From assembly GCF_001613805.1 (NCBI RefSeq), contig NZ_LPVY01000012.1, positions 124,001-188,000 of the forward strand: a stretch of DNA of 64,000 nt, given 5' to 3'. Origin of the DNA: Thalassospira lucentensis (GTDB lineage Bacteria > Pseudomonadota > Alphaproteobacteria > Rhodospirillales > Thalassospiraceae). Shown piece by piece: positions 13,024-15,204 of the stretch. Made by a program: the position numbers and the translations under genes. Positions within the stretch are counted from its first letter, which is position 1. Each line of letters begins with the position of its first letter. Under the pieces are notes generated by a model, which was given only the letters and a program-made list of their open reading frames with translations, was not told where the DNA came from and searched no databases.

Positions 13024-13100
<77 letters not shown>

Positions 13101-13432: not shown

Positions 13433-13509
<77 letters not shown>

Positions 13510-14161: not shown

Positions 14162-14710
14162 TTATTCGCGCGGTAATTCGTAGCGTTCGGCAAGCTTTGT
14201 CAGGGCGGCGACAGTTGCCTGTTCGACGGTGGTGCCAAACCCGGTGACGCGGCTTGCCAGAATGACATAAAGAGAATCAATGTGAAGCTGAATGACCAGA
14301 AGCTGCTTCATGTTGGCAGTCGTCCGGTCCGCAACAAAAATCTCAAGCGATTTTGCAATTTGCGTCATCAGCGGATACTGGAACGTGCCGCCAAGTGCCT
14401 TGACCGAATAGGCGAGGTCGGCACTGTTTTCCAGTGCGGCCGGTGCCTTTGAGTTGTTGCTGACAGCCTCGACCACGAGTTTCCGGCAATCGGCAAGTTC
14501 CTTGCCGATATCGCGAACGAAAGTCTCGGTGCTGCGCTGAACGACTTTTTCGAGTTCTTCGAGCTGTTCAGGGGACAGATTGATGTCAAAGCCCTTGACG
14601 AAATTGACCGCACGCCGCTTCAGATCCGTCTGAGGCGGAATGATCTGGGCTTTTTTCTTTTTCTTTTCGGGCGTCACGATTGCTCCGGTCCCCCAATCAT
14701 AATGGGTCAT
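14162..14710 (-). CDS. Hpt-like protein lacking the phosphoacceptor histidine
   Basis: A 182-residue soluble helical protein. Residues 10-25 form a lysine-rich linker (PEKKKKK), and a long helix follows. Residues 97-125 resemble the Hpt consensus around the phosphohistidine (typically AHxLKGxGGxFGxPLLxxI): here AYSVKALGGTFQYPLMTQI, with Tyr101 (codon 14408-14410) exactly where the His should be, while the Lys, the GG pair, Phe and the PL segment are kept. The family assignment is therefore inference from pattern. Its start overlaps the stop of the receiver-domain gene upstream (TAATG), so the two are translated together and probably act together. It cannot be an ordinary phosphotransfer protein. 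Confidence 0.6.
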   Translation of the reverse strand: MTHYDWGTGAIVTPEKKKKKAQIIPPQTDLKRRAVNFVKGFDINLSPEQLEELEKVVQRSTETFVRDIGKELADCRKLVVEAVSNNSKAPAALENSADLAYSVKALGGTFQYPLMTQIAKSLEIFVADRTTANMKQLLVIQLHIDSLYVILASRVTGFGTTVEQATVAALTKLAERYELPRE

Positions 14711-15204
14711 TAATCATCAGGGCTCCGTCTGTCGGGCCCATCGAAGGCGACCTGTCTGCGGCGGCGATCCGGACCGAAATAGGTGCCAGTATTCACGAAA
14801 TGCCGCGGACGGGTAATGACCGATACCAGTCTGCTGTAAAGTGCCTTGGCATTGAACGGTTTGGCAAGAAATTCCGTAATGCCGAGATCACGCGCAGTTG
14901 TGACGTATCGTTGCTCCGAATGTGCCGTCAACATGATTACCGGAATGAAGCGGTTGGGCGAATTGACGGAATTCCTGAGAACATCAAGGAATTCAAGACC
15001 ATCCATCCCGCGCAGGCGCCATTCCGTGACGATGATATCAATCTGCTGGGTTCGGAGAACCTCGAACGCATCGTTCGGGGATCGCACACGCTGTACGGCT
15101 GTCGCACCAAGATACGAAAGGGTATCGAAGACTACCTGGGCCGAAATCTTGTCGCCGTCGACGACCAGAAAACTGATTTTACTGAAATCGATCTTTGCGC
15201 TCAT
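14710..15204 (-). CDS. Receiver-domain protein with Glu at the phosphorylation site
   Basis: A 164-residue stand-alone receiver domain (residues 8-130) with a short basic tail containing YFGPDRRRR and a second GPDRR, a tail I associate with Rhodospirillales receivers. The conserved Thr (IMLTAHSE) and Lys (LAKPF) are present, but the phosphoacceptor Asp is Glu61 (IIVTEWRLRGMDG; codon GAA at 15022-15024) and the acidic pair near the N-terminus reads VVDGD. Asp-to-Glu changes can mimic the phosphorylated state, so it may be locked active. The ATG at 15204 is chosen because AGAAGG lies 6-8 nt upstream; the in-frame GTG at 15231 lacks one. It has no output domain and is coupled to the Hpt-like gene. 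Confidence 0.8.
   Translation of the reverse strand: MSAKIDFSKISFLVVDGDKISAQVVFDTLSYLGATAVQRVRSPNDAFEVLRTQQIDIIVTEWRLRGMDGLEFLDVLRNSVNSPNRFIPVIMLTAHSEQRYVTTARDLGITEFLAKPFNAKALYSRLVSVITRPRHFVNTGTYFGPDRRRRQVAFDGPDRRSPDD

Follow-up and report, generated by a model that had tools for sequence, protein, structure and literature searches.

A receiver and an Hpt-like protein of Thalassospira that both lack their phosphorylation residue: a probable phosphorylation-independent pair with a predicted cyclic di-GMP motif

What can a receiver and an Hpt protein do together once both have lost the residue that carries the phosphate? This question is raised by two genes on the minus strand of a 64,000-nucleotide stretch of the genome of Thalassospira lucentensis (contig NZ_LPVY01000012.1, positions 124,001 to 188,000; hereafter the window), which encode a CheY-like receiver and a protein related to Hpt (histidine phosphotransfer) domains. 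An initial annotation of the window had proposed a conversion from a phosphorelay to a phosphorylation-independent protein pair. This holds in that both proteins lack their phospho-residues, their genes overlap, and the pair is conserved and under purifying selection; it is refined here to an event of a single clade. The explanation we somewhat favor is a Cle-Hpt module—a phosphorylation-independent pseudo-receiver under the control of cyclic di-GMP (c-di-GMP), together with a pseudo-Hpt as binding partner.

The receiver matches the Pfam family Response_reg (E 5.6e-20), and its best PDB matches are CheY entries. As annotated initially, Glu61 takes the place of the phosphoacceptor Asp, while the switch Thr93 and Lys115 are retained. 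To this we add that the acidic DD pair of the metal-binding site is incomplete, Gly17 standing in for its second acid. Because Glu replaces the Asp and the second metal-binding acid is gone, the receiver is very probably unable to take up phosphate. The loss of the phospho-site was thus recognized from the start, but an Arg-rich c-di-GMP motif was missed: the C-terminal region YFGPDRRRRQVAFDGPDRR holds YFGPDRR and FDGPDRR, which match the tandem [YF]xGP[DE][RK]R tail by which Cle proteins (CheY-like c-di-GMP effectors) bind c-di-GMP (Nesper et al. 2017, PMC5677366). The only PDB sequence matched by the tail peptide at E values up to 1 is the CleD peptide 6sft (E 0.0014). Moreover, Arg105 of an ARDxG motif, by its position the likely counterpart of the helix-α4 Arg of Cle proteins (R113 in CleD), is invariant in 12 of 12 aligned rows and in all 43 Glu-bearing receivers of the census described below. 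The receiver hence looks like a Cle protein, as far as the comparison with the CleD tail peptide goes, and the predicted c-di-GMP motif offers a specific candidate substitute for phosphorylation.

For the Hpt-like protein, homology to PF01627 is established via its relatives. A family profile of 13 rows, window protein included, aligns gap-free to the motif of Salmonella CheA P1 (1i5n, E 9e-8), whereby the Tyr101 column falls on CheA His48 (48 as counted from the alignment), and the predicted model matches the four-helix bundle fold. Both earlier assignments, that the protein is an Hpt homologue and that Tyr101 occupies the phospho-His position, are supported by these data. The Pfam Hpt cut-off is passed by all six His-bearing relatives tested, whereas the seventh protein tested, the Tyr-bearing L029, falls short; neither the window protein nor L023 gives a Pfam Hpt match, and eight of nine members of the Glu-bearing clade (see below) from other genera stay below the cut-off, the Phe-bearing L209 passing it. 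Compared with the HxxKGxGG motif of Hpt domains, the KxLGGxF part is retained in this clade, and the phosphorylatable His is replaced by Tyr, Leu, Phe or Ile.

Both reading frames lie where they had been placed (Table 1), the stop codon TAA of the receiver and the ATG of the Hpt gene sharing one base (TAATG, position 14710). The codons TAT for Tyr101 and GAA for Glu61 are likewise as claimed, and all 16 orthologues of the codon alignment share them with the window. Catalytic residues that are gone might point to decaying, functionless genes. Against this, median ratios of nonsynonymous to synonymous substitution rates (dN/dS) of 0.034 and 0.093 for the two genes (16 orthologues and the window; rough ratios, as median dS exceeds 1) indicate purifying selection and make decay unlikely. 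In addition, each of the 28 genus genomes read, the own one included, has the pair intact with Tyr and Glu, and the signature is conserved in relatives of seven other family labels. Taken together, decay is most improbable. No second, canonical copy turned up in profile searches of the own genome: after the pair itself, the best Hpt-profile match is a 294-residue frame (E 1.9e-8) and the best receiver match shares 28% identity, while Pfam Hpt matches occur at four other places.

Table 1. Positions in the window of the gene pair and of the residues and motifs discussed.
Feature	Position	Strand	Basis or remark
Receiver gene (Cle-type pseudo-receiver by look, 164 residues, ATG start)	14710..15204	minus	First gene of the bicistron
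Asp16-Gly17, Gly in place of the second acid of the metal-binding DD pair	15154..15159	minus	Alignments
Glu61 (GAA), in place of the phosphoacceptor Asp	15022..15024	minus	Codon and alignments
Thr93, conserved switch Thr, kept	14926..14928	minus	Alignments
Arg105 in ARDxG, likely counterpart of the Cle helix-α4 Arg (CleD R113)	14890..14892	minus	Inferred from position
Lys115, conserved active-site Lys, kept	14860..14862	minus	Alignments
Arg-rich region, residues 142-160, tandem Cle-tail motif	14725..14781	minus	Published motif (PMC5677366) and 6sft match
Hpt-like gene (pseudo-Hpt, 182 residues)	14162..14710	minus	Second gene; Hpt homology via relatives, model and fold match
Tyr101 (TAT), on the phospho-His position	14408..14410	minus	Codon and profile alignment
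Lys104-Phe110 (KALGGTF), remaining Hpt motif, kept	14381..14401	minus	Alignments

Such receiver-Hpt pairs occur widely across the class. An order-wide search gave a match in 187 of 225 genomes at 1e-6, and a sample of the class in 135 of 387 genomes at 1e-12. The census regions were hand-picked among the matches listed, favoring frames of about 160-300 residues and different genera (some genera contribute several rows), and the class loci supplied directly by the search were the best matches to a profile built from one His and four Tyr rows, a choice that favors the Glu-bearing clade; hence, the census proportions are not population frequencies. Left out before counting were L031-L078, from the same genus or from places already covered (among them G235, a genome of the same species, and one or two more, whose residues were thus left unread), and L217, which is the same place as L223. 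This leaves 180 Hpt rows. For 53 of them, some at contig ends, no Cle-type receiver lies on the same strand within 400 bases; the other 127 are paired. Among the pairs, written as Hpt residue/receiver residue, 66 are His/Asp (three fused), 29 Tyr/Glu, eight Leu/Glu, five Phe/Glu, one Ile/Glu, nine His/Asn, one His/Ala and eight non-His/Asp (two fused, and two of the eight sharing one receiver). His/Glu does not occur among the 127, so all 43 Glu-receivers stand beside an Hpt without His. A further search with a profile of non-His Hpts returned 17 Glu rows. Two of these are controls (L001, L197) and three are places already counted (L298, L307, L326); the 12 new ones all lack the His and carry the family label f108. 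In total, 55 of 55 Glu-receiver pairs lack the His, 28 of them from the genus of the window. His/Asp sister pairs are found in several of the same families and partly in the same genomes (e.g., G321, G356 and G558), and are natural controls for the Glu/non-His pairs.

Did both residues change together once, or repeatedly? Trees were calculated for 106 paired rows (8 of the 28 genus rows kept, one row with a shared receiver dropped, trait columns removed) by quick searches, with branch support from the Shimodaira-Hasegawa-like approximate likelihood ratio test (SH-aLRT) and no bootstrap. The 23 Glu/non-His rows form one clade in the receiver tree as well as in the Hpt tree, with SH-aLRT 99 in both. 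Since this clade is single in both gene trees, the most plausible reading of the double loss is one ancient event common to eight family labels (f1, f30, f75, f108, f111, f121, f139 and f146) and not as repeated co-loss. Outside the clade, the losses are single: eight rows combine a non-His Hpt with Asp, and ten pairs combine His with Asn or Ala. A test on independent pairs for repeated His/Asp co-loss yielded two usable pairs on well-supported branches of each tree (five on all branches), none changing in the same direction; it gives no support to repeated co-loss but had no power either, as fewer than six pairs cannot reach 0.05. The matched losses emphasized by the initial annotation are joint within this lineage, as one event of one clade. 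The clade bears its own signature in both proteins. On the receiver side, the second DD acid is present in 1 of 43 clade members (L029) versus 72 of 73 Asp-receivers, and Thr or Ser, Lys, Phe three residues before the Lys (K-3) and the α4 Arg are kept in 43 of 43.

This conservation could be taken to mean that Glu61 is a fixed phosphomimic, with the receiver locked in an active-like state, the pseudo-Hpt as its constitutive partner and expression level as the only control. Apart from Asp, Asn and one Ala, Glu is the only letter seen at the receiver phospho-site; a site that is merely free should show others within the clade, yet the Glu rows are one clade in which the Lys is always kept, as are the switch residues Phe and Thr or Ser. 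Against this, the E70A allele of CleD is described as fully functional in Caulobacter, with the c-di-GMP site being needed (PMC5677366)—that Glu is native at the CleD phospho-site is our reading of the passage on E70A, which does not state it in words. The retained Arg-rich tail points to ligand control as well. We consider such a phosphomimic, with the locked state suggested earlier, rather doubtful. The kept Glu is the main feature that a c-di-GMP switch so far leaves unexplained.

The clade also bears on the idea that the pair still carries phosphate, merely on another residue, for instance Tyr101 itself or the Hpt residue His143. Outside the genus, 13 of 15 Glu-clade Hpts have His143, but the remaining two have Gln there, and the Tyr101 position is taken by Leu, Phe or Ile elsewhere in the clade. 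As both positions vary within the clade, neither can be a common phospho-site; phosphotyrosine at Tyr101 and phospho-His at His143 are rejected on account of this variation. With a receiver devoid of both the Asp and the second DD acid, a relocated phosphate is very unlikely.

For the favored Cle-Hpt module, the following course might be envisaged. The ancestors of both proteins probably exchanged phosphate, and an old Cle-Hpt subfamily would have given up phosphotransfer on both sides. The receiver, which keeps the conformational switch (Thr, Phe at K-3 and Lys) along with the Arg-rich motif, most likely has c-di-GMP as its switching signal. The Hpt keeps the helical-bundle fold, with a hydrophobic or aromatic residue at the His site, and is most likely a dedicated binding partner of the receiver—as cap, stabilizer or adaptor—rather than a donor of phosphate. 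The module would probably act on the flagellar switch or on some other target that CheY-like proteins have. CleD has been located on the flagellar C ring (PMC7534056), and FliM is present in 20 of 20 genomes tried, among them the genome of the window and 17 others of the families in the clade, which permits a flagellar target and does not demonstrate it. We infer the c-di-GMP binding, the complex and the target of the pair from sequence features.

Alternatively, the pseudo-Hpt might be a decoy that binds and blocks other, phosphorylatable Cle or CheY receivers, with the receiver of its operon as a competitor. The docking part of the Hpt motif is retained, several pseudo-Hpts of genus g244 stand without an adjacent receiver, and all 31 related genomes searched have further Cle-type receivers, with 2 to 18 matches per genome. 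The gene overlap, the single clade in both trees and natural receiver-Hpt fusions, however, favor the neighbor as the partner and render a decoy unlikely. Maybe—and we put this forward tentatively—a phosphorelay step was turned as a unit into a second-messenger module: both proteins would form a standing complex, c-di-GMP would set its assembly or its grip on the flagellar switch, the Glu would be part of a new interface, and the Hpt fold would be reused.

Cle proteins, Hpt domains and pseudo-receivers are each already known. The window receiver resembles the Cle proteins, of which CleA and CleD are described as acting without phosphorylation, as a CheY-like protein with a tandem Arg-rich motif; the difference lies in the Hpt partner, which is undescribed under that name in the main text of PMC5677366 (0 occurrences of the term hpt). 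A 2025 review states that the His is missing in 0.9% of Hpt domains and the Asp in 2.0% of receivers, and calls the activation or inactivation of pseudo-receivers in bacteria a mystery (PMC12632262). Like the pseudo-receivers treated there, the window receiver has neither the Asp nor the second DD acid; unlike them, it keeps the Thr, the Lys and the aromatic switch residue, and has a matching pseudo-Hpt. In Caulobacter, HmrX is a putative Hpt in motile-sessile control (PMC11481889). According to a survey of Azospirillum from 2015, two strains are without a stand-alone Hpt and two others have one or two, and low conservation is an obstacle to Hpt detection (PMC4618731); receiver-Hpt pairs may be overlooked for this reason. 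The open-licence literature gave no account of a pseudo-Hpt next to a Cle receiver or of one in Thalassospira (titles and abstract openings, among the matches listed). In this pair, a compact case that is widely conserved, phosphate chemistry was lost jointly on both sides while the receiver switch residues were kept, and the likely replacement signal, c-di-GMP, is readable from the receiver sequence. Plant pseudo-HPts also lack the His, as the window Hpt does, but belong, with the atypical response regulators of plants, to the cytokinin pathway.

Neighbors from chemotaxis or c-di-GMP signaling, for which the initial annotation had suggested looking, are absent from the ten neighboring proteins scanned, which were hand-chosen from the frame lists and come from eight sources. 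These are a deaminase, a DUF2336 protein (below cut-off), a thioesterase, an MscS-type channel, an ABC transporter, a periplasmic binding protein, a diaminopimelate (DAP) epimerase, a Lon-like protease, UvrA and one protein without family. Downstream of the pair, at distances of about 0.7 and 1.1 kb, two tRNA-Asp genes (gtc) follow on the minus strand (window 13024-13100 and 13433-13509).

The census contains further variants. Single chains of receiver, Arg-rich region and Hpt are found in L159 (952-2025), L247, L257, L258 and L259. One-sided loss, with the adjacent Hpt His kept, is seen in Cle-type receivers with Asn (L081, L157, L158, L221, L230, L232, L234, L242 and L253) or Ala (L248). Hpt relatives of family label f19 without an adjacent receiver carry Val (L122, L141) or Gln (L139, L145, L146, L150) at the His site. 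In seven genomes of g244 (G487, G410, G552, G612, G624, G625 and G626), the Hpt profile of the Glu clade matches five to seven times per genome. Where the residue at the His site was read, it is Leu or Phe; some of these Hpts adjoin Glu-receivers and others stand alone. At L296, a second response regulator lies about 2.6 kb away from a His-type Hpt.

A last observation concerns the Asp-type receivers. Of 68 Asp-type Cle receivers that are unfused and have an Hpt partner, 29 (L092, L101, L108, L111, L116 and others) end in a peptide like LSQDEINALLNG, which closely resembles the CheY-binding motif published for FliM, LSQxEIDxLL (PMC5677366); in G182, the genome to which L108 belongs, the FliM sequence is LNQDEIDSLLGF. 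Such tails occur in 0 of 43 Glu-type receivers and in 0 of 136000 shuffled tails; a 22-residue query gave no PDB match, and the literature matches listed for such tails hold, besides the Cle paper, one unrelated study. This suggests a receiver with its own FliM mimic, which might serve self-inhibition or docking to other CheYs.
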